Of a stretch of 44,729 nt of DNA, positions 830-19,962 are shown piece after piece. A model generated the notes under the pieces. It did no database searches. It was not told the DNA's origin and worked only from the letters and a program-made list of their open reading frames with translations. The DNA comes from Planctomycetaceae bacterium. Its GTDB lineage: Bacteria > Planctomycetota > Planctomycetia > Pirellulales > Pirellulaceae. The position numbers were made by a program, and so were the translations under genes. The stretch spans positions 1 through 44,729 of the forward strand of contig SYJV01000162.1 in NCBI GenBank assembly GCA_005798335.1, in the 5' to 3' direction. Position 1 is the first letter of the stretch, and the number at the start of each line of letters is the position of its first letter.

Positions 830-2452
830 ATGAGCAATGCAACCAAAGCGAGACATCCTTCCGGATTGTACGTGTTGTTTTTCACCGAGATGTGGGAACG
901 ATTCGGCTTTTATTTGATGTTGGGCATTCTCTTCTTGTACATGACTGGTGGCTTGCAAGATGGCGGTCTGGGATTTGACAAATCGAAGGCCAACGACATT
1001 TATGGAACTTATATTGCTTTGGTTTACTTGACGCCATTCATTGGAGGATTGTTGGCGGACCGAATTTTTGGATATCGCAAGACGATTATCTTTGGCGGTG
1101 CCTTGATGGGAGCCGGATACTTGACGCTGGCACTGCCCGGCCAAGGTCCTTTCTATCTGGCGTTGGGATTGATCATCGCCGGCAATGGATTTTTCAAGCC
1201 AAACATCTCTACATTGCTGGGCAATCTCTACAACAAGGACGATTTGAAAGAACTCAAAGACAGCGCCTACAATTTTTTCTACATGGGGATCAATATTGGA
1301 GCATTCGTGTGCAATTTCGTCGCCGCGTACATGCGCAACAACTATGGCTGGGGTTGGGCGTTCGGGGCTGCGGGAGTTGGCATGTTCATTGGCTTGGTGA
1401 TCTTCATCCTGAATACTCGGCACGTAAAGGAGGCGGACATCGTCAAACCTCGCAACGCAGAGGATATGCCTACTGGCAAGATCTTTGCGACGATTTTTAT
1501 TCCTGCGATTGTCTTTGCAGTGATTGGTTGTTTTCTGCCCGGGCTGTTTGGTCAGGACAACTTTCTGGGCTCGATGTCGAACGACGCTTTTATTTTTGCG
1601 TGTATCCCGATCGCGTACTACTATCTCAGCTTGTATCTCCAAGCATCAACCGAGGACAAAAAACCGATCGGTGCTCTGCTGTACATTTTCTCCGTCGTCG
1701 TCATTTTCTGGGCCATTTTTCATCAGAACGGAAATGTGCTGACGGACTGGGCTGAGTCCAATACCGCTCGCGAAGCACCCGCGGCCATGGAGAGCATGCT
1801 CAATGAGTTTGGCTTTGCGGAGACCGTCGATGCCAAACCAACGACCAATGCTGAAGGAAAAGAGGAAGTCAACAAATATCTGTTGAATCTCCCCAAAGAC
1901 CAATGGCCTGCTGAAGGAGCCTCGTTGAGCCTGATCAACACAGAACTATTTCAATCGCTCAACCCGCTGTTTGTCGTCGTTTTCACACCGTTGTTGGTCA
2001 CACTGCTGTTGTCATTGAAAGCCAAAGGACGCGAGCCATCGACGCCTGGAAAAATCGCGTTGGGTTTGTTTATCACTGGATTGTCTACGTTGGTGATGAT
2101 CGCGGCCGTAGGTGTCAGTGGCAATGGTGCCGATAAAGTGTCCGCGATGTGGCTGATCACTACTTACGCAGTGATCACGATTGGCGAATTACTGCTCAGC
2201 CCAATGGGGTTGTCGTTGGTCTCCAAGCTCAGCCCAAGTCGCTTGACGGCTCTGATGATGGGCGGATGGTTCCTGTCGACATCGATCGGCAATAAACTGT
2301 CCGGAGTCCTGGGGCACCTGGGCGCCGAGAGTGATGACAAGAGTCACGTCTTCTGGATCAATTTCGGCGGTGCCATGTTTTCGGCGCTGCTGCTGTTCAT
2401 TTTTGTCAAACGCATTCGAGAAGTTGTTCGCGACAAGACCGGGCACGATTGA
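830..2452 (+). CDS. Proton-dependent oligopeptide transporter (POT family, MFS)
   Basis: An inner-membrane major facilitator that imports di- or tripeptides with protons. The POT signature ExxER lies in the first helix (TEMWERFGFY, Glu20, Glu23, Arg24). It is followed by the conserved loop GGLLADRIFGYRKT and by FFKPNISTLLG. Hydrophobic segments recur along the full 540 residues, consistent with 12-14 helices. A polar insert of about 55 residues (roughly 305-360, rich in Glu, Ala and Asn) sits between helices in the C-terminal half. The start ATG lies just before the conserved helix and has only a weak purine stretch (GAAAG) upstream. The gene is followed 63 nt later by a paralogue in the same direction, so the two probably form a transport pair. 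The family is clear; the exact substrate is not. Confidence 0.93.
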   Translation: MSNATKARHPSGLYVLFFTEMWERFGFYLMLGILFLYMTGGLQDGGLGFDKSKANDIYGTYIALVYLTPFIGGLLADRIFGYRKTIIFGGALMGAGYLTLALPGQGPFYLALGLIIAGNGFFKPNISTLLGNLYNKDDLKELKDSAYNFFYMGINIGAFVCNFVAAYMRNNYGWGWAFGAAGVGMFIGLVIFILNTRHVKEADIVKPRNAEDMPTGKIFATIFIPAIVFAVIGCFLPGLFGQDNFLGSMSNDAFIFACIPIAYYYLSLYLQASTEDKKPIGALLYIFSVVVIFWAIFHQNGNVLTDWAESNTAREAPAAMESMLNEFGFAETVDAKPTTNAEGKEEVNKYLLNLPKDQWPAEGASLSLINTELFQSLNPLFVVVFTPLLVTLLLSLKAKGREPSTPGKIALGLFITGLSTLVMIAAVGVSGNGADKVSAMWLITTYAVITIGELLLSPMGLSLVSKLSPSRLTALMMGGWFLSTSIGNKLSGVLGHLGAESDDKSHVFWINFGGAMFSALLLFIFVKRIREVVRDKTGHD

Positions 2453-2515
2453 CCGGCGGTTGCCGATTCGCGGACAGTCTCCATTGAAACACTCACGAAG
2501 AACCGAGTTTAAGAC

Positions 2516-4024
2516 GTGGTTACCCAATCCAATTTGACTGCACAGCAAGCGTCGGAGCTGGAGAAGATCCAGTCATTCACTGGCGAATACCCGCGACAGC
2601 TTTGGCATTTATTCATGATTGAGATGTGGGAGCGATTCTGCTTCTACGGCATGCGCGGCATGTTGACCGTCTTCATGGCCGAGCAATTGCTGCTGTCGGA
2701 CAAAGACGCGAATCTCCAGTACGGTGCGATTCAGGCGTTCATTTACGCATTCACTTTTATCGGCGGTTTATTTGCGGACAAGATTCTCGGTCTGCGAAAA
2801 TCGTTGGTCTGGGGAGCGATCTTGATGATCGCAGGCGGCTTTCTGATCGCCGCTTCGCCCACGAGAATGTTTTACTGGGGAATCTGCTTTTCCATTGTGG
2901 GCACGGGGTTCTTTAAGCCCAACATTTCTTCAATGGTCGGCCAGCTTTACCAGGAGGGAGATCGCCGCCGCGATGCAGGTTTCAGCTTGTTCTATGCCGG
3001 TATCAATTTGGGAGCGACACTCGGCGGGATCGTCATGACTGCGGTAGGCTTGAGTTACTCGTGGAGTTTGGCTTTCGCGCTCGTGGGCGTCGTCATGCTG
3101 ATCAGCTTGCTGACCTTCAGCTTAACCAAACACACTATGGGACCAATTGGTCTATCACCATTGACCAATTCACCGGTGGAATCAAACAGACGAATCTTGG
3201 AGTGGGCGACATACGCCGGTTCGTTGGCGATCATTCCCTTGATATTAGTGCTCGTGAAAAACACCGCGTACACCGACATGGTCATGTACACCGCTGGTCC
3301 ATTGGCACTGCTATATGTCTTCTATGAAATGACCAAGTACGATTGGGCAGCGGTCAAGCGGTTGTGGGCGGCGATTATTTTCATCGTCTTCTCGGTTTTC
3401 TTTTGGGCCTTTTTTGAACAAAGCGGTGGATCGCTGGCACTGTTCGCGCGAAACAATCTGGAGGGCTCTTTGTTGGGCATGAGCATCGACCCCAACGTAG
3501 TCAACAACAGTGCGAACTCAATATTTGTGATTCTGTTCGCAGCCCCGCTGGGTCTAGTTTGGCTGTGGCTAGCGCGCCGAAAGTTGGAACCTGACTCAGT
3601 GGTCAAATTTGGGTTGGGCTTTTTGATACTCGCTGCGGCATTCTACTTGTTCTATGCGACGATTCACTTTGCCAACGCAAACGGAATGACTTCGTTACAT
3701 GTCTTTACTCTGGCGTATTTGGTGATCACCTTCGCCGAACTATGCCTGTCGCCGATCGGTTTGTCGCTGATGACCAAATTATCGCCGCAGCCGATGCAGG
3801 GCCTGATGATGGGCATGTGGTTTTTGGCCAGCGCCTATGGGCAATACGTAGCCGGGTTGTTGGGCGCCGGGATGAGCGTCGCGAACGAAAACGCTAGCGC
3901 GCTTGAAAAATTGACATCCTATACCAACGGATATCAAACTTTGTCAATGTATGCGTTAGTGCTGGGAATTCTATTGATAGTGATTTCTCCTTTGGTACGC
4001 AAGTTAATGGGCAGCGTACGGTAG
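2516..4024 (+). CDS. Second POT-family peptide transporter, GTG start
   Basis: A paralogue of the preceding gene (502 residues). It carries the POT motif IEMWERFCFYG (Glu36, Glu39, Arg40), the loop FIGGLFADKILGLRKS and FFKPNISSMVGQLYQEG. The C-terminal half has the family-typical segment LCLSPIGLSLMTKLSP. It starts at GTG; the next in-frame ATG lies at the ExxER motif and would cut off the N-terminus, so the GTG is preferred. Compared with the first copy it lacks the long polar insert and is 38 residues shorter. The two proteins are clearly diverged, so they are an old duplication and may have different peptide preferences. The substrate is inferred from the family only. Confidence 0.92.
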   Translation: MVTQSNLTAQQASELEKIQSFTGEYPRQLWHLFMIEMWERFCFYGMRGMLTVFMAEQLLLSDKDANLQYGAIQAFIYAFTFIGGLFADKILGLRKSLVWGAILMIAGGFLIAASPTRMFYWGICFSIVGTGFFKPNISSMVGQLYQEGDRRRDAGFSLFYAGINLGATLGGIVMTAVGLSYSWSLAFALVGVVMLISLLTFSLTKHTMGPIGLSPLTNSPVESNRRILEWATYAGSLAIIPLILVLVKNTAYTDMVMYTAGPLALLYVFYEMTKYDWAAVKRLWAAIIFIVFSVFFWAFFEQSGGSLALFARNNLEGSLLGMSIDPNVVNNSANSIFVILFAAPLGLVWLWLARRKLEPDSVVKFGLGFLILAAAFYLFYATIHFANANGMTSLHVFTLAYLVITFAELCLSPIGLSLMTKLSPQPMQGLMMGMWFLASAYGQYVAGLLGAGMSVANENASALEKLTSYTNGYQTLSMYALVLGILLIVISPLVRKLMGSVR

Positions 4025-4048
4025 ACGAACTGCCAGTTGTTCGACCAA

Positions 4049-4833
4049 TTAAGGGTCCAGCATTAATTCGTCCAAAAAGAATTCGTCGAACTCCGGCCAA
4101 TCGTCAACAATTGGTGGAGTGCCAGGCGCTGGCTGGAGAATGCTCTCCTCAATCACAGGGAAATTTGGCCCAACATCAATCTCCAAATGCGAGAAAATGC
4201 CATCGATATCGGTTGAATCCAACCGTTCATCAAACACCGCATCCGCAAACTGCACGGAAATACCGCTGAACGCATCTAGTTTTTTGCCACCCGATGTCAC
4301 GCTGCTTGCGCCAAGCAACGCAGCAGGTTGGTCGTCGTTCAAGATAACGCCAGCAGCGGTGAGAAGTCTGATAACCGCTCCGGTTGCATTGCTCAGTTGG
4401 ACAAAGAAAGACTCATTGCATTGCCTGTAAACTGCACGCTACGCCCCTGAGCGTTCAAGCTTGAGAGCAACAATTGCAACTGTTCGTCGAGTTCTAGCGT
4501 AAAATCACCGTTGACCGTTTCTTTGACCGTTTGGCTGGCCATCGAACCGGCGACGAATTTTACGGTGCCGCCGGTTACTGCCACATAATCGTTGTCGGCA
4601 AGCGTGGCCGGATTGGTCAGTCCGTCCGACGTATTGGCCGTCAATGAAACGTCGGCGTCTGCCAGTTTGTCGATCGAGACCGAAAACACCAAGCTGGCCG
4701 TGCCGCTGTTGGACTCCAGCACCATCGGGTTGTTGATCGAGATTGTGGCCGAGTCGTCATTGGCGATCGTCAGTGTTGCGGCGGGCTGGATCAAACTTAC
4801 ATTGCCATTACCGCTCGGATTGATCAACTGCAT
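4049..4833 (-). pseudogene. Remnant of a Calx-beta repeat surface protein, N-truncated and frameshifted
   Basis: Two minus-strand frames belong together. The first (4833 down to 4393) encodes Calx-beta-type sequence: PAATLTIANDDSATISI, then YVAVTGGTVKF, then LELDEQLQLLLSSLN. The second, in another frame, reads ESFFVQLSNATGA, then GVILNDDQPAALLGA, and ends in an acidic tail FDEFFLDELMLDP. Near 4400-4440 the first frame stops just where the second picks up at the ESFFVQLSN strand. The break therefore looks like an internal deletion joining two repeat units out of frame, not a single-base slip. The 5' end is also cut: the first frame begins mid-domain, directly after the in-frame TAG of the DUF4058 gene. 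Intact Calx-beta proteins are large and extracellular. This one is probably dead, although the 146-residue first part could still be translated from ATG 4833. Confidence 0.72.
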
Positions 4834-4842
4834 ATCCTTGGA

Positions 4843-5595
4843 CTAATTCGAAGTCTCTAGTTCACGGCGCCAGCGTTCGGGGACACCTTCGAAAGCGGCT
4901 TGATAGGTTGCTTCGAAAGGGACCATGACGTGTCCCGGTGGCCGCAAGAATAGCGGCATATCCGGGAGCGATTTTCCAACAGCGAACGGCTCGATGAAGG
5001 CTTGCCGTTCAAGTCCTCCCGTATACGCTACGATGGTGAATGGTTCGTCGGGCGGCAAGACGAACTGCTCCTCCTCACCGATTTCATCCCAAATCGCACC
5101 GTGAATACCTTGAGGATCGCGACTGCTCGGCGGGAAAACGTCAACGATCAGCAGGTGAATGCCTGCCCTGAGCAGTTCGTGCGTTTTATCGACAAACGAT
5201 CGTATCGCGTGGCGACTTGCCTTGTTCCCTGGCGAGACAATTTCGATTATCGCCACGACGTCATCGCCACTTCGATGACGTATCACCACACGACTGCGTT
5301 TGTCAGCGTAAATCTCGATCTCGGATTTCGCCATGAAGCGAGTTCTTGGCAAAGCAGTTGCCAGCCCGCCACCTGTTTGCGAGCGAATTCCATTACCGTC
5401 GTCTTCGTCTGGTAAATGAACATTGCCAAGCGTCAGCACATCCGGCCCCAGCCCGCCAGCAATTTGCTCTGCCATCGCATAGTATTCTCGCGGAAGCAGA
5501 CTGGAATTGAGAGTTCGGCTTATGCACGTAATCCACTCGTGATGAAAATGGTGAAACGTGCCAGCGATAACGCGGGTCCAATCGTGAACTGGCAT
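4843..5595 (-). CDS. DUF4058 family protein
   Basis: A 250-residue protein matching the DUF4058 family by its opening MPVHDWTRVIAGTFHHFHH, the following LLPREYYAMAEQ, the core EIYADKRSRVVIRHR...VVAIIEIVSPGNK, and the end ERWRRELE. This family is frequent in Planctomycetota and Cyanobacteria and has no established function; the IEIVSPGNK stretch recalls nuclease-like folds, which is inference only. The protein has no signal peptide or membrane helix, so it should be cytoplasmic. A good ribosome site (complement of 5602-5607, AAGGAA) lies 6 nt before the ATG. Its stop codon is followed in the same frame by the Calx-beta remnant, so the DUF4058 gene probably replaced the front of that older gene. 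Confidence 0.88.
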   Translation of the reverse strand: MPVHDWTRVIAGTFHHFHHEWITCISRTLNSSLLPREYYAMAEQIAGGLGPDVLTLGNVHLPDEDDGNGIRSQTGGGLATALPRTRFMAKSEIEIYADKRSRVVIRHRSGDDVVAIIEIVSPGNKASRHAIRSFVDKTHELLRAGIHLLIVDVFPPSSRDPQGIHGAIWDEIGEEEQFVLPPDEPFTIVAYTGGLERQAFIEPFAVGKSLPDMPLFLRPPGHVMVPFEATYQAAFEGVPERWRRELETSN

Positions 5596-7990: not shown

Positions 7991-9403
7991 TTATCGAGCA
8001 AGCTGCTGCTTGACGGCGCCGAGGATTTTCTCTTCGAGTCCAGGTGCGAATCGAGTGGGTTGATCGTAGTAGATCATGGCGCTACCCCCTTCGTAACCGC
8101 CTTCGCTGAGTACGCGTTCGCTGGGAATATAGCACGGCGCAGCATTGCTGTAGGCGTTCACCCAAATACTTGCTCGAGGTATTTCACTCTTTAGCCGCTT
8201 GGCATAATCCACGACAACTTCGCCGGCCAAGAATACCATGCAAAGCGAATCGCCAAATTGCCAAGTTTGAATCGGATAGTCGATTTTTGTGCGCAGTTTC
8301 TCACCGCGATCAAGTTTGCTGAGCTGCACTCGAGCATGATAGCCGATTGCGGAATCGAGTTTGGATTTCTGCTCCAGTTCCTGGCGTGACGGTAGTTCGG
8401 CCAAATCCAAATCGATGCGCGAATACTGGACGTTGATTTTACCGGATACGGTTTGCAACGGACCATCGGCTAGGCGTTTTACTTCGCAAGCAATCTCGAG
8501 GCCTTGCTGCGAGGCGATATCGAATCGATCGCCCTGCACACCGAGCAACGGATTCTGGTCAGCGCCACAGCCGATCGACACCATCGCGAGCGACCCGGGA
8601 AAAATCCGTTCGATGTGCTCCTGAGCATATCCGGCCCAATCGCCGCCGATTAGGCTCTCAGACAAAGTCACGCAGTGGCACGCGTAATTGACTAGAATCG
8701 ATCTCGGTTGGCCATTGAGATCACGCACCACTAGCATTGGCAATTCGTGATCGATCGGTCCAGTTGCCGATCTACGGTTCTTGGCAAAGGTGACTTTGCC
8801 TACTCCGAACATCATCGTTGCGGGCTTGCGGTCATCGAGAGCTGCCAGTCCCACTTCCACCAGCTTGTCCGTAAAGAACTGGGTATAGCGGTCGATATGT
8901 GCCTGGTCCGCCGGTGGAATCTGAGCACCAAAAATATTGGGGGCACAGCCGTTGATCATCGGAGCCGTATGCGTGTGCGACGCTGCGATGGCAAGCCGCT
9001 CCTGGCGCAGCTTTGATGACTGGCCGATTCGACGAGCCACCTCATGAGTGATTTCATCCGGAACACCTAGGTTGTCGACGGTGATCAGGACCAACGGCCC
9101 TTCGGTGTCATCTCCGATTGCCAACGCTTTGGCCCAGATGCGCTGTCGAACACCTCTCGACTCTTCCTTGCGAACCAAGAACCCATTCATCCTGACTGGG
9201 TAATCGGGAGTAATGTCCACGCGCGCCGACCCAACTTGATATTGACTCTCCGCGGCCCCAACCGGCAGAGCAACCGCTTGGCAACTTGCCACAATTGCTA
9301 TCACCGAGCACCAGAAGACATCGCGTAGTTGTCCTTCGTCCGCGTGTGTCGTATTGATACTGAAGCTTTGCAAACGTACCGCTCTTAGAATCCAAGCCAG
9401 CAT
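7991..9403 (-). CDS. Secreted neutral/alkaline ceramidase-like hydrolase
   Basis: A 470-residue protein resembling the N-terminal catalytic domain of neutral/alkaline non-lysosomal ceramidases: QVGSARVDITPDYPV at the start, then IAASHTHTAP, VNYACHCVTL, GGDWAGYAQEHIER and IGCGADQNP. The His and Asp residues in these motifs are the expected zinc-binding and active-site positions. The C-terminal immunoglobulin-like domain of full-length ceramidases is missing, as in many planctomycete members annotated only as ceramidase-like. An export signal (VFWCSVIAIVASCQAVALP) is visible, but about 28 residues precede it and there is no clear ribosome site at the ATG, so the true start is uncertain. The natural substrate is not known; ceramide is a family inference. 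Confidence 0.85.
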   Translation of the reverse strand: MLAWILRAVRLQSFSINTTHADEGQLRDVFWCSVIAIVASCQAVALPVGAAESQYQVGSARVDITPDYPVRMNGFLVRKEESRGVRQRIWAKALAIGDDTEGPLVLITVDNLGVPDEITHEVARRIGQSSKLRQERLAIAASHTHTAPMINGCAPNIFGAQIPPADQAHIDRYTQFFTDKLVEVGLAALDDRKPATMMFGVGKVTFAKNRRSATGPIDHELPMLVVRDLNGQPRSILVNYACHCVTLSESLIGGDWAGYAQEHIERIFPGSLAMVSIGCGADQNPLLGVQGDRFDIASQQGLEIACEVKRLADGPLQTVSGKINVQYSRIDLDLAELPSRQELEQKSKLDSAIGYHARVQLSKLDRGEKLRTKIDYPIQTWQFGDSLCMVFLAGEVVVDYAKRLKSEIPRASIWVNAYSNAAPCYIPSERVLSEGGYEGGSAMIYYDQPTRFAPGLEEKILGAVKQQLAR

Positions 9404-9514
9404 AGACGTGCTCGCATTTTAGTTCAGTGAGACTGGGCGAAATAGTACGACTTTACTAGCGAGATTATTGTGTCCGCTGTGGCTCCCAACAAGCATATGA
9501 CCCGCAAGTGGCGT

Positions 9515-9666
9515 GGTCGAAACCTCGTTTAACCCCGTTCAACGAACGTGGGATAAGCTTCCAGCTTGTCAACCTGTCGCGGAGTTGCGCCATTGCTTGC
9601 ACAAGATATTGACAAGCTGGAAGCTTATCCCACGTTCGTTAAACGGGGTTATACGAGGTTTCGACC
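9515..9666. repeat. Long near-perfect palindrome (copy B), 58-bp arms
   Basis: The arms are 9515-9572 and 9609-9666. They are complementary at 56 of 58 positions, and the 36-nt loop is 9573-9608. The inner arm and loop are shared with copies A (20-139) and C (44572-44691). The outer arm (ACCTCGTTTAACCCCG and its complement) extends further than in those copies. The element sits between the divergent starts of the ceramidase-like gene and the haem-porin gene. As RNA it would be a very stable hairpin, but no U-run follows it, so it is not a classical terminator. Confidence 0.92.
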
Positions 9667-10029
9667 GGGCAGCGTTGCAAGAAGCTGCCAAACACTGCCA
9701 GGTGACTTCAATTCACTACCATCCGCAAAATTTACTCAATCGGCATCATCGCTACAGTCGATCAATTCGATAAATCTTATTGCTTTTAATTTCTAGGGAG
9801 GGTGGAACCAGTTGGAATGGTTGCCGCGTTCTACTGCCTCGCGCGATTGCACGTGGGTTATTGGAGCGTTTCCGTTGGGTTCAAGAGAAAAGTGGTATGG
9901 ACTTGCGAAACACATGTACGTGCCGCCTTTTCTGACCGACCGCAGGAATTTTTTCATTTTCATTCAGCGGCTATTCCAGGGGTTTCACTGGCACCATGCT
10001 AAAACCAGTTGCATAAGGGTGGATCAACC
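9667..10029. other. Gene-free leader of the haem-porin gene
   Basis: About 360 nt with no gene that I can support; the short open frames show no domain or signal. The stretch presumably carries the promoter of the following gene. At its very end AAGGGTGG (10014-10021) lies 8 nt before a GTG codon. Confidence 0.45.
10014..10021 (+). promoter_or_regulatory. Ribosome binding site deciding the GTG start at 10030
   Basis: AAGGGTGG is placed 8 nt before GTG 10030. The longer in-frame TTG at 10009 lies upstream of this site and has none of its own. Starting at 10030 also puts the hydrophobic signal segment directly at the N-terminus. Confidence 0.6.
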
Positions 10030-11865
10030 GTGGTCAATTACTACAAATTGTTTTTTCTTTTTGCTTTGGCTTGCGCCCAATCGCAAACTTGCTGGTCTCA
10101 AAATCTCAGCTTGATGCCCAAGCCAGCCGGATACTCGATGGCGCAAGCGCACATGACTGACCAAGTCAATTCCGGCGCTGGCAGTGCTAGCACAACCAAA
10201 TCGGCGGCTCCAAAACAAATTCCACAGCCTGCAACTAACGCTAAGAATGGTGTTTCTCCGCCTGAGGGAAATGGCAAGGCCGGCAACGCAGATGCTGCCC
10301 TGCTCGAGCGTGGCAAAATTGCTTTTCAATCCTCTTGCACCGAATGTCACGAAGCATCACGAAGCATGGAGCAATCGAAGAGCTATGCTCAATGGATGGA
10401 AACGATCCGCAAAATGGCTGCCAAGGAAGATGCACAAATTCGGCCCGCAGATTTTGATGCGATCGCTCGATATTTGACCGCAACTGCAAAGGGTAGTGGC
10501 GCGAACGGTTCGGTGTCGGACAAGGATGACCAGGCGAAGAAAGACGCTGACAAAGATGCGGACAAGAAATTCGATCCTGCCGTTGTCGCGGCTGGTCGCG
10601 CGGCATTCAATTCTTCTTGCTTGAAATGTCATGATGCTGAACGATCGACCAGCAAGTCGAAGAGCTATTCAGAATGGCTGAGCACGGTCAGACGCATGGC
10701 ATCCAAAGATGGCGCGGCAGTGTCTCCGTCGGACTATGTTTCGATAGCAACCTATCTGGCCTCGTTGTCAGGTGGAGCCAGCGGTGAAGGAAGTGGCGAA
10801 TCTAGTGGCTCGGGCGGCGGATGGTCGTTTGGTACCACGGTCTCTACGATCCACCGTAGCGCGAGCGATGAATCATTGGTTGAGAATCCTGGTTTCTTTG
10901 CTGACGTTTGGGTGACAACATCATTTCAATCGGCGGGCCCGTGGAGCGCAACCGTGACCGCTTGCACCAGTTGCCACAGTACCAACAGCGCGATCAGTTC
11001 GTACAGTCTCGAGTTGCTCGAAGGTTCGGCGACGGTCGATCTGCGCAAGCTGTTCACCGAGTGCCAAAATGACTGTGGGCCTCAAGTTTCACTGAAGGCA
11101 GGTAGGTTCCCGGTTCCGTTTGGAGCGTTTTCGTCGATGAGCCACCCGGGAGTTTATCGGGCAGTTACGGTGCCGCTGATGTTCAACATGGGTCGACGCG
11201 TGTTCGCACGGGGAGCTGCACCACCGCGGCAGCCGGTGTTGCCGTTACCGTTTCCTGACGAAGGCATCGATTTCATGTACCGCCAAAAACTGACCAAGGA
11301 CATTTCGTTTGGCCTGGATTTGTACGCAGTAAATGGACTGCAAGGCAACGAGAACAATTTGTTTGAACTCAGTCGAGCCTACTCGGACAACAACGAAGAA
11401 CCTTCCATCGGACTGCGCACTACGTTAGGCGGCGAATTCTTGACGTTCGGTGCATCGCTGCTGCACGGCGGATTACAAGACCAAAGACGGCCGCTGGAAG
11501 ACTATACATTGTGGGGCGCCGATGTGACGGCACAGTTGACTGATCGGTGGCGTGTCTATGCGGAATACGCTCGCCGCAGGCAAGACTCGAATAACTTTCC
11601 TGGGACAGCGGAAGAGACCTCGGGAGTTGTGGCCGAAACCGAATTTCGGTTCTGGACCAAACCTCATCTCAGCATGCTCGTGCGCTACGATACGCTCGAC
11701 CATCGCAGCGAAAACGTCGGCGACGCGTCGATCGAACGATTTACCAGCGGTTTTAATATTGGCATGCCGCGAGGCAGCTTGTTGATGATCAATCACGAAC
11801 ACTGGCAACCCGAAATCGGTCGCGACGTGGACCTCATCGGAGTACGTTGGTCGATTTCGTTGTAG
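10030..11865 (+). CDS. Multihaem c-type cytochrome fused to a porin-like outer-membrane barrel
   Basis: The 611-residue protein opens with a signal peptide (YYKLFFLFALACAQS). Two similar cytochrome modules follow: CTECH at 103-107 with SYAQWMETIRKMA, and CLKCH at 197-201 with SYSEWLSTVRRMA. In each, the Met of the (K/R)MA segment could be the second haem ligand. A charged linker (about 157-185) separates them, and a Gly/Ser linker (about 248-266) leads into a beta-rich half. That half has porin features: LKAGRFPVPFGAFSSMSHPG, many alternating aromatic strands, and a final strand LIGVRWSISL. A third haem motif, CTSCH at 312-316, lies inside the barrel's first strands. Periplasmic haems joined to an outer-membrane barrel in one chain suggest electron passage across the outer membrane (inference). 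An alternative is a porin with haems used for stability or sensing. Confidence 0.8.
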   Translation: MVNYYKLFFLFALACAQSQTCWSQNLSLMPKPAGYSMAQAHMTDQVNSGAGSASTTKSAAPKQIPQPATNAKNGVSPPEGNGKAGNADAALLERGKIAFQSSCTECHEASRSMEQSKSYAQWMETIRKMAAKEDAQIRPADFDAIARYLTATAKGSGANGSVSDKDDQAKKDADKDADKKFDPAVVAAGRAAFNSSCLKCHDAERSTSKSKSYSEWLSTVRRMASKDGAAVSPSDYVSIATYLASLSGGASGEGSGESSGSGGGWSFGTTVSTIHRSASDESLVENPGFFADVWVTTSFQSAGPWSATVTACTSCHSTNSAISSYSLELLEGSATVDLRKLFTECQNDCGPQVSLKAGRFPVPFGAFSSMSHPGVYRAVTVPLMFNMGRRVFARGAAPPRQPVLPLPFPDEGIDFMYRQKLTKDISFGLDLYAVNGLQGNENNLFELSRAYSDNNEEPSIGLRTTLGGEFLTFGASLLHGGLQDQRRPLEDYTLWGADVTAQLTDRWRVYAEYARRRQDSNNFPGTAEETSGVVAETEFRFWTKPHLSMLVRYDTLDHRSENVGDASIERFTSGFNIGMPRGSLLMINHEHWQPEIGRDVDLIGVRWSISL

Positions 11866-12101: not shown

Positions 12102-12581
12102 TTGCTGGTCGTGATTTCGAAACGCCTGGCAATTGATAAGTGTCCCATTGGAGTTCACGGTACGTTGCAAGCTACTTTCCAGCCGCGATTCTCAATTTTG
12201 GCATTCTTTGTCATTACAGCGGCTATCGCATTGCTAGTCCCGTTGATCTTCAAGTATTGGCGGCAGCTCACACAGGAGTTCTCAATCGCGTGGACAGTGG
12301 CTTGGTCGGTGCAATTTGCAGCCGTGGGGGGCAAATTTACGACACATGCGGTGCATGCCGTTGGCTTTTCCAAGATCTGGCCAGCAATGCTGGTGGTATT
12401 CGCATCGCTGGTTTTGAGTTGGTGCATAGGAGAGACCTTACCGATCGACTGGCTGGATTATGTTCAGTTCGAGGAAAGCAAAGACATCTTGATGTTGCCT
12501 TTGATCCCTTTGGCATTTATGGCCTGTACGATTGCGATTCTTGCCGCGTTTACGAATGTGCTTGAAGCGATTCGCCGCTGA
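12102..12581 (+). CDS. Small integral membrane protein of unknown function
   Basis: A short protein with three to four hydrophobic segments: PRFSILAFFVITAAIALLVPLIF, one around WTVAWSVQFAAVGG, one around IWPAMLVVFASLVLSWCIG, and the last at LMLPLIPLAFMACTIAILAAF. The FSI..FF.ITAAIAL stretch resembles a membrane segment common near the start of small planctomycete proteins. The reading frame can begin at TTG 12102, GTG 12111 or TTG 12165; the last has GGAG at 12150-12153, 11 nt upstream, and gives 138 residues. The gene lies in the same direction as the haem-porin gene, 236 nt after it, so a functional link is possible but not shown. No family is recognised. Confidence 0.6.
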   Translation: MLVVISKRLAIDKCPIGVHGTLQATFQPRFSILAFFVITAAIALLVPLIFKYWRQLTQEFSIAWTVAWSVQFAAVGGKFTTHAVHAVGFSKIWPAMLVVFASLVLSWCIGETLPIDWLDYVQFEESKDILMLPLIPLAFMACTIAILAAFTNVLEAIRR

Positions 12582-12834
12582 GTGTTTTGAGCCAGATGTG
12601 CTGGAAAACTACTAAACTGGGGACGCCGCCAGGAAACTGCTTGCTCATTTTGATCTGGAATTGCATTTGGTAGTGCGGAATAGTTTGCATTCTCGTTAGT
12701 TATTGTTAAATTCAAGTTGTACTTTCATTAAACAAGTTCAATTCGCAATTTCTGCAAGGTGATTATCGTGTTTTTCGATTGCCCTGCTTTTTGTTTGGTG
12801 GTTTGTTCCTTATTTAGGTTTTTCCCGTTTGTCT

Positions 12835-12838
12835 GGAG
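12835..12838 (+). promoter_or_regulatory. Ribosome binding site deciding the start of the giant protein
   Basis: GGAG lies 8 nt upstream of ATG 12847. The longer in-frame TTG at 12829 lies before this site, so ATG 12847 is the likely start. The 265 nt between the membrane protein gene and this start is AT-rich and otherwise featureless. Confidence 0.65.
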
Positions 12839-12846
12839 TCTTGTCG

Positions 12847-15800
12847 ATGAGTCGCTTGGAATTTCTTGCGAAAGGTCGCGCGCGCTTGCGCCGACTGAGA
12901 AATGGTGCGTTTTTCAAAAGTGCTCGGCGCAGATTGCTCGGCTTCGAGCGACTAGAGATCCGCAACCTGTTAGCGGTAGTTACGTTCGCTCCATCAGTCG
13001 ATACAACTTTGTACCAAGAGAGTGAACGTGACCTGGCGAACGGGTTGGGCGATTCGATATTCGCTGGAGTAACCGCTGACCGAAACCAAAATCTGCTGCG
13101 GCGTGCGCTGCTGAAGTTTGACGTATCTTCGCAGATACCTGCAGGAGCCACGATTAACTCAGTCACGCTGAGGCTGAATCTGACGAAAACTCCCAATCCG
13201 GTAATCAGCACTTCGATGAGCCTGCATGAAGTGCTGGCCGATTGGGGTGAGGGTACGACCAACGCTGGTGGCCAGGAAGGGACCGGTGAAGACGCTACAG
13301 CAAATTCTGCGACTTGGAAGCATCGGTTCTTTCCAAGTACGAATTGGACGAGCTTGGGAGGTGACTTCAACTCCAAAGTCAGTTCATCGACTTCAGTACT
13401 TGGGCTCGGCAGTTATGAATGGACCGGAGCGGGGTTGGTCACGGACGTGCAGAAGTGGGTGAACACACCGGGCAGTCAGTTCGGTTGGTTACTGAAAGCC
13501 ACTAACGAGACCACCTCCAAGAATGCGAAACGATTTGCGTCCGCGAACAATAACAACCAAGGCAACCGTCCGTTGCTGACAGTTGATTTCACTCCAGTTG
13601 CTGTATCCAACAAGGCACCGACGCTGGACTTGATCGCTAATCCCGCAGCTATTCTAGAAGACGCTGCCGCGCAAACGGTGAATTTAACGGGTATCTCGGC
13701 CGGACCAGGTGAAACACAAACGCTGACCGTCACGGCGGTTTCCAACAACACAGCTCTGATTCCGAATCCGACGGTAAGTTACACCAGTCCAAGTTCGACA
13801 GGCTCGTTGGTTTTCACGCCCGTGGCAAATCAATCGGGTACCGCGACGATCACGGTAACAGTCACAGATAATGGCGGCACTGCCAACGGAGGAGTCGATA
13901 CGCTGGTTCGCTCGTTTACCGTAACCGTGAACCCGGTAAACGATGCCCCGACGCTAGACACAATCGCCAACCCGACAGCGATTTTGGAAGAGGCGAGCAC
14001 TCAGACTGTCAACCTCACAGGCATCTCGGCAGGACCCAGTGAGAACCAAGCGTTATCGGTCACCGCGGTTTCGAACAACACGGCTCTAATCGCCAATCCA
14101 GCGGTCACGTACGTCAGTCCCGGTGCCAGTGGGACGCTCAACTACGCGCCGCTGCCCAATCAGTCGGGTACCGCCGTGATTACGGTGACTGTGGCGGATA
14201 ACGGAGGCACCGCCAACGGCGGCGCGGATACATTTGTCCGCTCATTTACCGTAACAGTGAATGCAGTAAACGACGCTCCCGCACTGGACGCAATCGCTAA
14301 TCCCGCTGCCATTCTCGAAGACGCCGCGGCGCAGACCATTAACCTATCTGGCATCTCGGCCGGTCCAGGTGAAACACAAACGCTGACCATCACAGCAGTG
14401 TCCAACAATCCGGCACTAATTCCGAATCCGACGGTAAATTATACCAGTCCCAGTTCGACAGGCTCGTTGGTTTTTACGCCAGTTGCGAATCAATCGGGTA
14501 CCGCCACGATCACGGTGACCGTCACCGATAATGGCGGCACGGCCAACGGAGGAGTCGAATCGCTGGTTCGCTCGTTTACAGTAACCGTGAACCCGGTGAA
14601 CGATGCTCCAACGCTGGATGCAATCGCCAATCCGTCTGCGACTTTGGAGGATGCGAGCGCTCAAACTGTCAACCTCACGGGCATCTCGGCAGGTCCCAAT
14701 GAGAATCAAACGATAACGGTCTCGGCGGTTTCCAGCAACACGGCTCTGATCGCGAATCCAGTGGTCACGTACGCCAGTCCCGGGGCCAATGGGACGCTAA
14801 ACTACACGCCGATATCCAATCAGTTTGGTACCTCAGTGATTACCGTGACTGTGGCAGATAACGGCGGCACAGCCAATGGCGGCGCGGATACATTCGTCCG
14901 CTCCTTTACGATAACAGTGAACCCGGTCAACGATGCGCCGACGCTGGACGTGATCGCTGACCCTAATCCCATTCTTGAGGACGCCGCCGCACAAACAGTC
15001 AATTTAGCGGGCATATCAGCCGGACCCAACGAAAATCAATCGTTGTCGATTACTGCGGTTTCCAGCAATCCAGCGCTGATTCCAAACCCAACGGTAAATT
15101 TCACTAGTCCTAGCGCAACCGGCACATTGGTCTATACACCCGTTGCGAATCAATCTGGGAGCGCAATTATCACTGTGACCGTTACGGATAATGGAGGCAT
15201 CGCCAATGGCGGCAGCGATTCAACTGTTCGCTCGTTCACGGTAACGGTGAATGCGGTCAACGATGCTCCGACTCTCGATGCGATCGCCAATCCTGCGGCG
15301 ATATTGGAAGACTCTGGAGTACAAACAGTTAATTTAGCGGGGATATCGGCAGGCCCCAATGAGGCTCAAACACTTTCGATTACTGCCGTATCAAACAATC
15401 CGTCATTGATCCCAAATCCGTCGGTATCCTATGTCAGTCCCAACGTTACCGGATCGCTTAGCTATACGCCGGTCGCAAACCAGTTCGGCTCGGCCACGAT
15501 CGTCGTCACCGTAAATGATAACGGAGGAACTGCAAATAATGGCGTTGCTTCGCTGTCGCGAACGTTCACGGTAACTGTCGACCCAGTCAACGACTCACCG
15601 ACTCTCGATGCGATATCCAATCCAGCGCCGATTCTCGAGGACGCGACCGTCCAAACTATTAATCTGGCAGGCATCGGGGCAGGCCCGAATGAGAGCCAAA
15701 CAGTTTCGATTACCGCCAGCTCAAGCAATATCGCCTTAATCGCAAATCCGGCGATTGTTTATACCAGCCCCAATGCTGCCGGAACGCTCTCGTACACTCC

Positions 15801-18800
15801 CGTTGCTAATCAATCTGGAACCGCCATCATAACCGTAACTGCTAAGGATTCTGGCGGTACCAACAATGGTGGCATCGATTCCGTTTCCCGAACCTTTACC
15901 GTCACGGTGAATTCAGTTAACGATGCGCCGACTCTGGATTCGATCGCGGACCCCGCGGCCATCTTGGAGGACGCTAAAGAGCAGACATTGAGCCTCGCCG
16001 GAATCTCCGCGGGGCCAAACGAAACGCAGACGCTGAGTATCAGCGCGGTATCCAGCAATCCAACATTGATTCCCAATCCAACTGTCACGTACGTCAGCCC
16101 CAACGCTACCGGTTCACTGGCCTTTACACCGGTCGCCAATCAATCGGGTGCCGCGACGATTACGGTCACAGTCACCGACAATGGAGGCACAGCGGACAAT
16201 GGCCAAAACACGTTCACTCGAACTTTCGCGGTTACCGTCACTCCCGTGAACGATGCACCGACGTTGGATCTGATCAACAGCCCAGCTCCCATCCTTGAAA
16301 ATTCGGGAACTCAAACAGTCCATCTGTCCGGAATATCCGCTGGTCCCATCGAAGCACAAACACTGTCCGTGACGGCCGTATCCAGCAACCCCGCGCTGAC
16401 CCCAAATCCTATCGTGGCGTATACCAGCCCAAACTCCACCGGTTCGCTCACCTATTCGCCAGTAGCCAATCAAACTGGCACAGCCACAATAACGGTGACC
16501 GTCAGCGACAATGGTGGGACGACTAACGGCGGAGTCAACCAAATTGTTCGCACCTTTGTAGTTACGGTCAGTCTAGTAAATCGCGCTCCGACATTGGACG
16601 CTGTGCCCAACCCGACCGCGATCCTCGAAGACGCTGGCGCGCAGACTGTTTCGCTTACGGGTATCTCCGCGGGTACCAACGAGACACAAACGATCACCGT
16701 GTCCGCAGCGTCCAGCAATCCAACTTTGATTCCTCAACCTACCGTTAATTACACCAGTCCCGGTGCCGTCGGTTCGCTGACCTATACACCGTCAGCCAAT
16801 CAATCAGGATCAGCCGTCATCACGGTAACCGTTCAAGACAATGGCGGGACTGCTGGTGGTGGCATCGACACAGTGACTAGATCGTTCACGGTTTCGGTCG
16901 AGCCCGTGAACGACGCGCCGACTTTGGATGCTATCGCCAATCCGGCGACGGTTCAGGAAGGTGCGGGAGTTCAGACGATTAATCTGAGCGGCATCACCGC
17001 GGGTCCGAACGAGAGCCAAACTCTCGTTATCACCGCTGTCTCCAACAATACGGCGTTAATTCCCAATCCTACAGTAAATTACACCAGCCCAAATGCCAGC
17101 GGCTCGTTGACGTATACGCCAGTGATCAACCAATCCGGGTCGGCGATTGTCACGGTCACGGTCACGGACAATGGCGGCAAAGCCAATGGCGGAGTCGACT
17201 CTTTCGTTCGCACCTTTCGCGTCACTGTAAATGACGTAAATCATGCGCCGACTTTGGATGCGATCCCTAACCCAGCCACGATTCTGGAAGATGCTGGGCT
17301 ACAACTCGTTGGACTGACAGGAATCTCCGCTGGACCCGACGAAGTACAGGCTTTGACGATTTCGGCTCAGTCCAGTAACACCGCTCTGATCCCTCATCCA
17401 ACTGTTGTATACACCAGCCCCGATTCGAAAGGCAATTTGGAGTTTATTCCGGCGGCCAATCAATCCGGCACCGCGGTGATTACGGTGACCCTGCGCGACG
17501 ATGGCGGCACTGCGAACGGTGGAGTTGACTCAATCACTAGGTCGTTTACCGTGACAGTCAATCCGGTCAATGACGCACCGACTCTGGACGCGATCAGCGA
17601 TCCTCCGGCGATTCTCGAAGGCGCCACAACGCAGACCATTCAAATGGCGGGCATCACCGCCGGCCCCAATGAAACTCAGTCGTTGAAAGTCTCGGCTGTT
17701 TCCAGCAACACGGCACTGATTCCCAATCCAGCAGTGATCTATACCAGCGCCAATGCGACCGGTTCGTTGACTTACACACCTGCCGCCGACCAGGCTGGAA
17801 CCGCAGTTATTACTGTAACTGTTCAGGATGACGGAGGTACAGCCAATGGAGGCAACGATTCGTTTACGCGAACTTTTACAGTGACCGTGGAATCGATCAA
17901 CGATGTACCGACTCTGGATGCGATAGCCAATCCGGCAGCGATCCTCGAAGATGCTACGAGCCAGACCGTGAGTTTGACCGGAATTTCGGCTGGTCCTAAC
18001 GAATCGCAAGCATTGTCAATCACGGCCGTGTCGAGCAATCCGAACCTCATATCCAATCCTACCGTCACATACACCAGCCCCAATGCCACGGCGTCGCTGA
18101 AATACGTGCCAGTGCCTAATCAATTTGGCTCGGCAACGATTTCCGTTACGCTCAAGGACGATGGCGGGACATCCAACGGCGGAGTCGACTCGATTACGCG
18201 GTCGTTTACTATTACCGTCAATCCAGTCAATGACGCACCCACGCTCGATGCGATTCCCAATCCGGCCGCAGTGCGTACCGACCAAGGTGTTCAGTCCCTG
18301 AATCTCGCCGGCATATCGGCTGGTCCATTTGAATCACAATCGTTGACCGTCAGCGCCATTTCTAGCAATCCCAGCTTGATTGGCCAGCCGACGATCGACT
18401 ACACGAGCCCCAACGCGAATGGAAAACTCTCGTTCGCTCCGGTCGGTAATCAAGCCGGCAAAGCAACGATTACTGTCACGGTTCAAGATAACGGCGGGAC
18501 CGACAACGGTGGAGCGAACTCGGTGTCGCGCGACTTTGTCGTCGAAGTGATCGTTGTCAATGAACTGCCAACGATCGATGTGATCGCCAATCCTGCTGCG
18601 ATCAACGAGGATTCGGCGAGCCAAAAAATTACGCTCACCGGTATCACTGCTGGCACCGGTGAGTCGCAGCCCATTTTCATCGCTGTGACATCGGACAATC
18701 CGAACGTGATTCCCAATCCAGTTGTTACTTACACCAGTCCGCAGACCACGGGCTCGCTGGCTTACACGCCTGTAGCGAACAAATTTGGGAGCGCAGTGAT

Positions 18801-19962
18801 TACAGTGACAGTGACGGACGGCGGCTTGGACAAGAACTTAGCCACGACGCTGGATAACGCATCTGTCAATCGACAGTTTACTGTCACGGTGAACTCTGTG
18901 AATGACGCTCCGGTGGCTGTCGCCGATGCGTTTCAGTTAACCGAAGATACGCTCGCGGTAATCGATCTGCTGGCCAACGACAGCGATGTTGATTCCGCTT
19001 TCAACACGAGTTCGTTTGAATTCAAGCTGGGCCCGAATCACGGTACTGTATCGGTGACTGCCAACGGAAAAGTAGAGTATCGGCCCGCGCAGGATTACTT
19101 TGGCATCGACGGATTCTCCTACCGTGTAGCCGATGCCCAAGGAGCGTTTTCGGATTGGGCTACGGTTAACTTGGCGATCAATGCGATTCCAGTCGCGGCC
19201 GGTGAACTGCAATACCTCAATGCTGGCGCGCCCACGAATATCAACGTGCTAGCCAACGATCGCGATCCCGATGGCACCGCGCAAGATTTGCAGATCGTGA
19301 TTGTGTCGAATCCCGATCCCAGCGTCGGCCAGTTCGTCGTGACAACCGACAAGTTAGTTCGCTTTACACCAGGTCAAGCGTTTGCCGGCTCAGTTCAATT
19401 GCGGTATCGAGTGCGCGATGCATTGGGAGCCGAATCGCCGGAGGCTATCGCCTCGCTGGGTGTCTTCAATCAGAATCCGAGAATATCCGAAGACGTCAAC
19501 GATTCCGGTCAGATAACTCCACTGGATGTGTTGTTTATCATTAACACTTTGAACGTTGAAGGTGGTCGTCGAATCGCCCCCGGAAGCCACTTAGCGCCTT
19601 TTTATGACGTGAATGCGGATGGATTCGTTTCGCCTTTGGATGCGTTGCTGATCATCAATTTTCTCAACTTGCGACTAATCACCGGTGAAGGTGAATCGCA
19701 GTTGAACCAAACGATTGTGCCATGGCCTGTCGATCATTTCAGGACTGACAGTAGTCTCGGCGACGATCTAGTGTTCGAGGCTGAAGAGAGGAAGCCCGAT
19801 GTACTGGATTCACTGCTTAGTCAGCCTATTCATGTTCTGGTCCAAAGCTCGAATTTGACTGCTACGAGCGCGCCCCGATCGTCCAAGCACGCAGCGAGTG
19901 ACGTTGTCTTCCAAGACATCGATGCCCTGATGGTCGATGCACTGGCGATGGACTGGGATTAG
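12847..19962 (+). CDS. Giant secreted repeat protein with DNRLRE-like head, 16 cadherin/Ig-like repeats and type I dockerin
   Basis: A 2371-residue surface or matrix protein. The basic N-terminus ends in FERLEIRNLLAV (about 33-44), the planctomycete-type LExRxLL extracellular signature. Residues about 46-250 form a beta-sandwich domain like the DNRLRE/disaggregatase-related family (RALLKFDVSS, SVTLRLNLT, VTDVQKWVN). Residues 257-2020 are sixteen tandem units opening APTLDAIANPAAILED and ending SFTVTVNPVND. Two cadherin-like units follow (AVADAFQLTEDTLAVIDLLAND and related). A dockerin lies at about 2215-2277, with paired calcium loops DVNDSGQITPLD and DVNADGFVSPLD. The tail ends DALMVDALAMDWD. 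Likely roles are adhesion or scaffold assembly through a cohesin partner; no cohesin is in this window. The first base pairs of a palindrome overlap its stop codon. Confidence 0.92.
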   Translation: MSRLEFLAKGRARLRRLRNGAFFKSARRRLLGFERLEIRNLLAVVTFAPSVDTTLYQESERDLANGLGDSIFAGVTADRNQNLLRRALLKFDVSSQIPAGATINSVTLRLNLTKTPNPVISTSMSLHEVLADWGEGTTNAGGQEGTGEDATANSATWKHRFFPSTNWTSLGGDFNSKVSSSTSVLGLGSYEWTGAGLVTDVQKWVNTPGSQFGWLLKATNETTSKNAKRFASANNNNQGNRPLLTVDFTPVAVSNKAPTLDLIANPAAILEDAAAQTVNLTGISAGPGETQTLTVTAVSNNTALIPNPTVSYTSPSSTGSLVFTPVANQSGTATITVTVTDNGGTANGGVDTLVRSFTVTVNPVNDAPTLDTIANPTAILEEASTQTVNLTGISAGPSENQALSVTAVSNNTALIANPAVTYVSPGASGTLNYAPLPNQSGTAVITVTVADNGGTANGGADTFVRSFTVTVNAVNDAPALDAIANPAAILEDAAAQTINLSGISAGPGETQTLTITAVSNNPALIPNPTVNYTSPSSTGSLVFTPVANQSGTATITVTVTDNGGTANGGVESLVRSFTVTVNPVNDAPTLDAIANPSATLEDASAQTVNLTGISAGPNENQTITVSAVSSNTALIANPVVTYASPGANGTLNYTPISNQFGTSVITVTVADNGGTANGGADTFVRSFTITVNPVNDAPTLDVIADPNPILEDAAAQTVNLAGISAGPNENQSLSITAVSSNPALIPNPTVNFTSPSATGTLVYTPVANQSGSAIITVTVTDNGGIANGGSDSTVRSFTVTVNAVNDAPTLDAIANPAAILEDSGVQTVNLAGISAGPNEAQTLSITAVSNNPSLIPNPSVSYVSPNVTGSLSYTPVANQFGSATIVVTVNDNGGTANNGVASLSRTFTVTVDPVNDSPTLDAISNPAPILEDATVQTINLAGIGAGPNESQTVSITASSSNIALIANPAIVYTSPNAAGTLSYTPVANQSGTAIITVTAKDSGGTNNGGIDSVSRTFTVTVNSVNDAPTLDSIADPAAILEDAKEQTLSLAGISAGPNETQTLSISAVSSNPTLIPNPTVTYVSPNATGSLAFTPVANQSGAATITVTVTDNGGTADNGQNTFTRTFAVTVTPVNDAPTLDLINSPAPILENSGTQTVHLSGISAGPIEAQTLSVTAVSSNPALTPNPIVAYTSPNSTGSLTYSPVANQTGTATITVTVSDNGGTTNGGVNQIVRTFVVTVSLVNRAPTLDAVPNPTAILEDAGAQTVSLTGISAGTNETQTITVSAASSNPTLIPQPTVNYTSPGAVGSLTYTPSANQSGSAVITVTVQDNGGTAGGGIDTVTRSFTVSVEPVNDAPTLDAIANPATVQEGAGVQTINLSGITAGPNESQTLVITAVSNNTALIPNPTVNYTSPNASGSLTYTPVINQSGSAIVTVTVTDNGGKANGGVDSFVRTFRVTVNDVNHAPTLDAIPNPATILEDAGLQLVGLTGISAGPDEVQALTISAQSSNTALIPHPTVVYTSPDSKGNLEFIPAANQSGTAVITVTLRDDGGTANGGVDSITRSFTVTVNPVNDAPTLDAISDPPAILEGATTQTIQMAGITAGPNETQSLKVSAVSSNTALIPNPAVIYTSANATGSLTYTPAADQAGTAVITVTVQDDGGTANGGNDSFTRTFTVTVESINDVPTLDAIANPAAILEDATSQTVSLTGISAGPNESQALSITAVSSNPNLISNPTVTYTSPNATASLKYVPVPNQFGSATISVTLKDDGGTSNGGVDSITRSFTITVNPVNDAPTLDAIPNPAAVRTDQGVQSLNLAGISAGPFESQSLTVSAISSNPSLIGQPTIDYTSPNANGKLSFAPVGNQAGKATITVTVQDNGGTDNGGANSVSRDFVVEVIVVNELPTIDVIANPAAINEDSASQKITLTGITAGTGESQPIFIAVTSDNPNVIPNPVVTYTSPQTTGSLAYTPVANKFGSAVITVTVTDGGLDKNLATTLDNASVNRQFTVTVNSVNDAPVAVADAFQLTEDTLAVIDLLANDSDVDSAFNTSSFEFKLGPNHGTVSVTANGKVEYRPAQDYFGIDGFSYRVADAQGAFSDWATVNLAINAIPVAAGELQYLNAGAPTNINVLANDRDPDGTAQDLQIVIVSNPDPSVGQFVVTTDKLVRFTPGQAFAGSVQLRYRVRDALGAESPEAIASLGVFNQNPRISEDVNDSGQITPLDVLFIINTLNVEGGRRIAPGSHLAPFYDVNADGFVSPLDALLIINFLNLRLITGEGESQLNQTIVPWPVDHFRTDSSLGDDLVFEAEERKPDVLDSLLSQPIHVLVQSSNLTATSAPRSSKHAASDVVFQDIDALMVDALAMDWD
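13615..18906 (+). repeat. Coding tandem array, fifteen units of exactly 330 bp plus one of 342 bp
   Basis: Units begin at the APTLD codons at 13615, 13945, 14275 and so on every 330 bp to 18565, with no insertion or deletion until the last unit, which is 12 bp longer. Units 1-2 (13615-14274) and 3-4 (14275-14934) are much closer to each other in DNA and protein than to the rest: units 1 and 3 share GPGETQTL and SPSSTGSLVF, while units 2 and 4 share VTY.SPGA.GTLNY and GGADTFVRSF. This marks a recent 660-bp block duplication. The remaining units keep the protein consensus while their codons differ freely. Confidence 0.93.

Follow-up and report, generated by a model that had tools for sequence, protein, structure and literature searches.

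The gene at positions 10030-11865 (plus strand) of the stretch of planctomycete DNA analysed here (the window, 44,729 nucleotides at full length) raises the question of whether a single protein can unite cytochromes with an outer-membrane barrel that has a haem site of its own, and what such a chain would do. The window's genome comprises 8.46 Mb in 558 contigs; a relative of the same genus (G011) has a gene that is 66-67% identical, on a contig of 13,011 bases.

Architecture of the haem-porin

The gene starts with GTG at 10030 (TTG at 10009 is an alternative in the open frame) and encodes 611 residues, to which homologues were aligned. The original prediction had described one chain of this length with two CXXCH modules, a linker and a porin-like part with an internal CTSCH, and all of these elements are confirmed in the sequence. 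Behind a signal-like start (by eye), the three CXXCH motifs begin at residues 103 (CTECH), 197 (CLKCH) and 312 (CTSCH). Cytochrome c module 1 (10285-10500, residues ~86-157) carries CTECH at 10336-10350 and M129 as its likely distal Met; module 2 (10573-10779, residues ~182-250) carries CLKCH at 10618-10632 and the invariant M223. Module 2 is present in all 12 aligned close sequences, the window's included, and module 1 in six of them. In Pfam, the chain matches Cytochrome_CBB3 (1e-9, two stretches, the best at residues 92-149) and Dehyd-heme_bind (1.9e-8, two stretches, the best at residues 188-254), both above the gathering score; the NCBIfam family SorB is matched at 2.5e-15, below the family cut-off, and neither the Pfam nor the NCBIfam scan revealed a catalytic domain. 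A structural model of module 2, of fair quality (pLDDT 71), has SorB (E 0.55) and quinohaemoprotein amine dehydrogenase (E 1.2) as its best Foldseek matches, both weak.

A Gly/Ser-rich linker (10768-10815) leads from module 2 to the porin-like barrel (10816-11862; residues 263-611, 349 residues), which is related to OprP and Porin_O_P. The barrel haem motif CTSCH (10963-10977, residues 312-316) falls in the hairpin that joins predicted strands 3 and 4; the proposed sixth haem ligand, M387 (codon 11188-11190), belongs to a loop insert that reads PLMFNMG (11173-11193).

Taken alone, the window barrel has only sub-threshold Pfam matches (best TonB_dep_Rec_b-barrel, 0.0012), and a profile of 12 haem-barrel sequences found no match among PDB sequences at E values up to 10. 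The haem barrel is taken to be a porin through its motif-free relatives, which were found with the same profiles and match OprP and Porin_O_P: the profile of 18 motif-free homologues matches OprP (2o4v) at 6.6e-12, and Porin_O_P is matched by 10 of these 18 and, weakly, by two of 18 sequences with the motif (best 9.7e-5). In the alignment of the motif-free relatives with OprP, the C-terminal half is supported with 42.5 bits, the N-terminal part only poorly with 6.2 bits; the placement of CTSCH between strands 3 and 4 comes from this weak N-terminal alignment and from a rough amphipathicity scan, which gave 17 amphipathic segments where a closed OprP-like barrel would have 16 strands. An AlphaFold2 model of the barrel, for which the alignment comprised only the window and L002, reached a mean pLDDT of 30.2, too low for a closed barrel to be read from it.

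Conservation of the barrel motif and of a partner methionine

All 22 carriers, the window included, retain the barrel CXXCH; they come from six planctomycete families and diverge down to 23% identity. The motif is likewise kept in 12 of the 12 aligned close sequences. This set of 22 leaves aside a locus with an N-terminus cut by its contig (L051), the broken copies in G148, the remnants in G005 and G209, and a detached C-terminal piece in G011. Homologues lacking the CTSCH had been named beforehand as an outcome that would speak against the prediction; the opposite was found, and by sequence comparison the conservation of the motif is beyond chance. In alignment A5 (18 carriers), both Cys, the His and M387-G388 are among 24 invariant columns. 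In the joint alignment with the motif-free relatives, M387, within the pattern PLxxxMG of the loop insert, corresponds to Met in every carrier and in none of the 36 motif-free relatives, 31 of which have a gap at this column; the haem His of eight carriers falls in a shifted column of this alignment, and the His itself is present in all carriers. At the sequence level, CXXCH and a candidate distal Met ligand therefore occur together at the barrel site in 22 of 22 carriers. Because the Met tracks the CXXCH in this way, His/Met ligation of the barrel haem is likely.

The barrel CXXCH could instead form a disulfide or a metal site, with haem bound by the N-terminal modules only, as in a Cyc2-like protein. 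The barrel haem is indeed deduced from sequence, and we know of no precedent for haem attachment within a short beta hairpin; yet the His is invariant together with both Cys, the invariant Met follows the motif, and in seven of the 22 carriers the barrel motif is the sole CXXCH of the protein. We regard a disulfide or metal site as unlikely, and the barrel motif as a probable haem site with a Met cap.

The best tree has a branch with all carriers on one side, as do 94% of 200 bootstrap trees. Support for this branch is 96/86 with the trait columns included and 95/43 with these columns removed; the grouping thus stays, and its SH-aLRT value drops from 86 to 43. On this tree, the CXXCH motif and the Met were probably gained together, once. 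Since both are confined to one clade, their pairing counts as about one event and not as many independent ones.

Fused and separate cytochromes

The original prediction had asked whether homologues always have cytochrome and barrel fused; they do not. Two N-terminal modules occur in six of the 22 carriers (the window, L002, L034, L035, L037 and L039), one module in nine (L033, L036, L038, L040, L041, L042, L049, L050 and L053), and none in seven (L052 and L054-L059). The seven module-free carriers and L053 form a single branch (support 100/99). Throughout this branch (eight of eight, L053 included) the product of the gene upstream of the porin has a single CXXCH, in its C-terminal part; seven of these eight proteins have a lipoprotein-like start (by eye) and the eighth (L084) is cut by its contig, and the four that were domain-scanned all have Ig-like or related domains. 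Directly downstream, a separate mono-haem cytochrome ORF follows in six of the seven module-free carriers; in the seventh, the contig ends 142 bases on. These downstream ORFs have their own start codons, located from 36 bases before to 152 bases after the porin end (three overlap it), and lipoprotein-like starts (by eye). The ORFs directly beside the porin in this branch have a single CXXCH each. Searched against 1490 ORFs, the module-2 profile recovers five of the six downstream ORFs at E values from 6e-11 to 0.0034; the remaining one, at E 0.061, is inseparable from the best unrelated match at 0.09. The background away from the porin in seven loci of the branch is one CXXCH motif in open frames per 62,932 bases, or approximately 0.01 per 1300 bases per strand. 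Free cytochromes beside module-free barrels are the pattern expected if fused modules and free cytochromes share one job. In all 14 fused loci examined (L053 apart; four with a short flank on one side), neither strand has a CXXCH ORF closer than 1300 bases to the porin, so that the fused members are without a haem-bearing outer partner nearby. In the separate-gene branch, locus L082 holds, in addition, a five-CXXCH ORF with cytochrome c3-type Pfam matches at 4255-5115 on the minus strand, about 1.8 kb downstream of the haem-porin; thus, not every locus in this branch is mono-haem only.

The 36 motif-free relatives (18 from the phylum sample described below and 18 from further class and family searches) served as a control in which, by the same measure, no haem-motif neighbours were expected. 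A CXXCH ORF lies just downstream in 16 of the 36 and upstream in seven; within this control set, one motif-free group (L063-L067, L069-L074, L076 and L077) has a neighbouring CXXCH ORF in none of its 13 loci. The CXXCH-free OprP-like porins that adjoin CXXCH ORFs come from many planctomycetes (L060-L062 and others, in the wide loci L141-L160). Pairing of OprP-like porins with mono-haem cytochromes thus extends beyond the haem barrel and is probably the older trait, to which the barrel haem was probably added. In L060-L062, both a lipoprotein-type haem domain and a module-2-type cytochrome follow downstream of a barrel without CXXCH, an arrangement that we read as an earlier evolutionary step. 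As a caveat, since cytochromes also neighbour the motif-free porins, the neighbour genes alone are no proof that the barrel haem conducts.

In a second alternative, the protein is a small-solute pore and the barrel haem a redox gate or sensor, its redox state being set by the modules and opening or closing the M387 loop. The barrel does group with OprP-like solute porins, in which the pore-constricting loop sits in an insert after strand 5, and M387 lies in an insert after predicted strand 5, the same place in the OprP loop scheme. Two to three cytochromes would, however, be needless for gating, and the separate-gene branch keeps its haem genes both upstream (eight of eight) and downstream (six of the seven without a fused module); a gate seems improbable. 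An outer-membrane redox enzyme, whose haems would help to oxidise a small substrate such as sulfite or a metal ion and not conduct over long range, is very unlikely: the modules resemble the haem domains of SorB and amine dehydrogenase, but the haem part of those enzymes serves a separate catalytic part and the Pfam and NCBIfam scans gave no catalytic domain in the present chain. The best reading remains a conduit assembled from mono-haem parts, which in the window's family have been fused.

Distribution and broken copies

Among 241 genomes of the window's family, the haem-porin or a remnant of it occurs in at least 15: there are 12 readable copies, of which one is truncated where its contig ends, and three genomes with broken or partial copies; a further 10 of the 25 genomes that matched in the family search did so via the cytochrome part only and are excluded from this count. 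Two genomes of the family (G012 and G106) have a match with a motif-free barrel. In a phylum-wide sample of 392 genomes, the window's included, at least 30 match the barrel profile, 12 in the haem group and 18 motif-free; L051, counted in the haem group without its N-terminus, was placed there by similarity and by its Met. Several searches scored five or eight first-look candidates per genome, and the counts are lower bounds. Broken or reduced copies were seen at L043 and L044 (both G148), L045 (G005) and L047 (G209); they may reflect decay of the gene in some lineages, or assembly errors.

Neighbouring genes in the window's family

For a partner, attention had originally been drawn to the adjacent small ORF at 12102-12581. 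This candidate was rejected: it has no family match at E values up to 1, and apart from the window's own copies there is no match to it among 160 loci. In the close relative G011, the detached C-terminal piece of the porin (L046) ends at 208 and the next called gene begins at 522, 314 bases on, with no counterpart of the small ORF.

A better candidate is the neighbouring gene on the plus strand at 12829-19962, which encodes a surface-type protein of 2377 residues with a DNRLRE domain (12979-13596; NCBIfam score 64.8, cut-off 34), 15 Ig-like/cadherin repeats and a dockerin, and no CXXCH. The DNRLRE domain is rare (zero to six matches per whole genome), and in 10 of 16 genomes searched (G000, G011, G054, G148, G183, G184, G206, G209, G213 and G298) a DNRLRE protein is encoded at a distance of 0.2-2.8 kb from the porin gene or what remains of it, sometimes with another ORF in between; the loci concerned are the window, L032, L034, L036, L040, L041, L042, L044, L046, L047 and L079. 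In G067 and G078, the match is on a contig other than the porin's, and G005, G070, G098 and G200 have no DNRLRE match. The recurrence of so rare a domain gives some support to the DNRLRE protein as a candidate extracellular partner of the haem-porin, and it may anchor the conduit on a surface or polymer.

Several other genes were noted near these loci and in the window's genome. Contig C137 of the window's genome (L139, 9165-10034) encodes another DNRLRE protein, which is short and ends in a tail that by eye is PEP-CTERM-like; no porin was seen near it. Positions 830-4024 of the window hold two tandem, mutually similar genes of multi-pass transporter-like appearance (by eye), and in G098 (L039) the haem-porin stands between two long, mutually similar, efflux-pump-like genes (by eye; 1533-4721 and 8014-11148).

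Proposed mechanism

We consider it fairly probable that the window's haem-porin is a trans-outer-membrane electron conduit, with a CTSCH-bound haem on the barrel capped by M387 and with periplasmic cytochrome modules. The OprP-like barrel would sit in the outer membrane and the N-terminal modules in the periplasm; the third c-type haem would be attached by CTSCH in the hairpin of strands 3 and 4, and M387, in the loop that follows strand 5, would cap it. A periplasmic start of strand 1 would bring the CTSCH hairpin and the M387 loop to the outer side and leave the modules periplasmic. Electrons could travel, in either direction, between a donor or acceptor outside the cell and the tethered haems in the periplasm by way of the barrel haem, through Cyc2-like oxidation or through reduction of an outer acceptor. 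In the distant branch, the same device would be laid out as a gene cluster of a lipoprotein-like one-haem protein, presumably at the cell surface, a haem barrel and a small mono-haem cytochrome.

Such a device may have arisen stepwise, from an OprP-like porin with neighbouring mono-haem cytochromes, through the acquisition of a haem in the barrel, to the fusion of cytochromes with the barrel. The fullest form of the proposal, to which we give an even chance, is that this would be the first outer-membrane barrel with a built-in c-type haem, its His on a surface-side hairpin and its Met on a pore loop, and the core of a stepwise-evolved trans-membrane conduit of mono-haem parts.

Comparison with known systems

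Electron conduits had been characterized in the original prediction as normally made of separate cytochrome and porin subunits; this is too narrow, as the Fe(II) oxidase Cyc2 is described as a fused cytochrome-porin (Keffer 2021, PMC8406198). The fused cytochrome-porin is thus already known as a kind. The haem-porin resembles Cyc2 and Cyt572 in joining an N-terminal c-type cytochrome and an OprO/OprP-like barrel in one chain (PMC8406198, PMC5566968); the combination of N-terminal haem motif and porin that marks Cyc2 is found here as well, with the porin part recognized by remote homology only. It differs in having one or two N-terminal modules in the window's family and a conserved haem motif inside the barrel. 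Cyc2 has its single haem in the N-terminal part and is defined by the motif AXPXFAR[Q/K][T/Y] upstream of CXXCH (Keffer 2021, PMC8406198); this motif is found in none of 12 proteins of the haem-porin family (the window included), each of which has two or three CXXCH motifs, and membership in Cyc2 is ruled out by the missing motif and the haem number. A Cyc2 gene has been reported in one Bythopirellula genome (PMC10732223), as have planctomycete genomes with Cyc2 or porin-cytochrome annotations (PMC10732223, PMC13264449), which may or may not belong to the haem-porin family described here.

Multihaem conduits form the second group for comparison. The separate-gene branch is three-part in a way similar to MtrCAB, PioAB, MtoAB and the Pcc conduits of Geobacter, in which an extracellular cytochrome, a barrel and a periplasmic cytochrome are combined. 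The barrels of these systems are not known to carry a haem of their own. Their cytochromes are decahaem or otherwise multihaem and their barrels larger (PMC8406198), in contrast to the haem-porin parts with one motif each; the multihaem gene beside the porin by which MtrAB, Pcc and PCC4 are recognized was found within 1300 bases in none of the 14 fused loci. The Verrucomicrobia porin-multihaem and PCC4 clusters, reported as putative conduits of planctomycetes or related bacteria (PMC5615132, PMC5566968), were likewise considered and are ruled out by their haem counts (eight haems in the former; four, five and 10 in the latter), with their porins encoded separately.

Individual parts of the chain have relatives with other functions. 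The N-terminal modules are similar in sequence and, weakly, in fold to SorB and quinohaemoprotein amine dehydrogenase, the haem domains of which serve dehydrogenases and not porins. The barrel differs from OprP and Porin_O_P proteins, as seen in the 36 non-haem relatives, in having both the CXXCH and the Met of PLxxxMG. The open-access literature searched yielded no description of an outer-membrane barrel that contains a haem motif; as far as this literature shows, the conserved haem motif of the barrel and the Met that goes with it are new, and so are the layout of mono-haem parts and the series from unfused to fused forms.

In known conduits, the barrel either encloses a multihaem cytochrome that runs through it or is plugged by a single N-terminal haem; a barrel with a conserved haem of its own, if confirmed, would be a third conduit design, and a small one. 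It would also point to electron exchange with the cell exterior in lineages of planctomycetes that would escape searches based on multihaem cytochromes. With haem-free porins beside cytochromes, haem porins beside separate cytochromes, and fused chains all represented, the evolution of such a wire would become directly testable.
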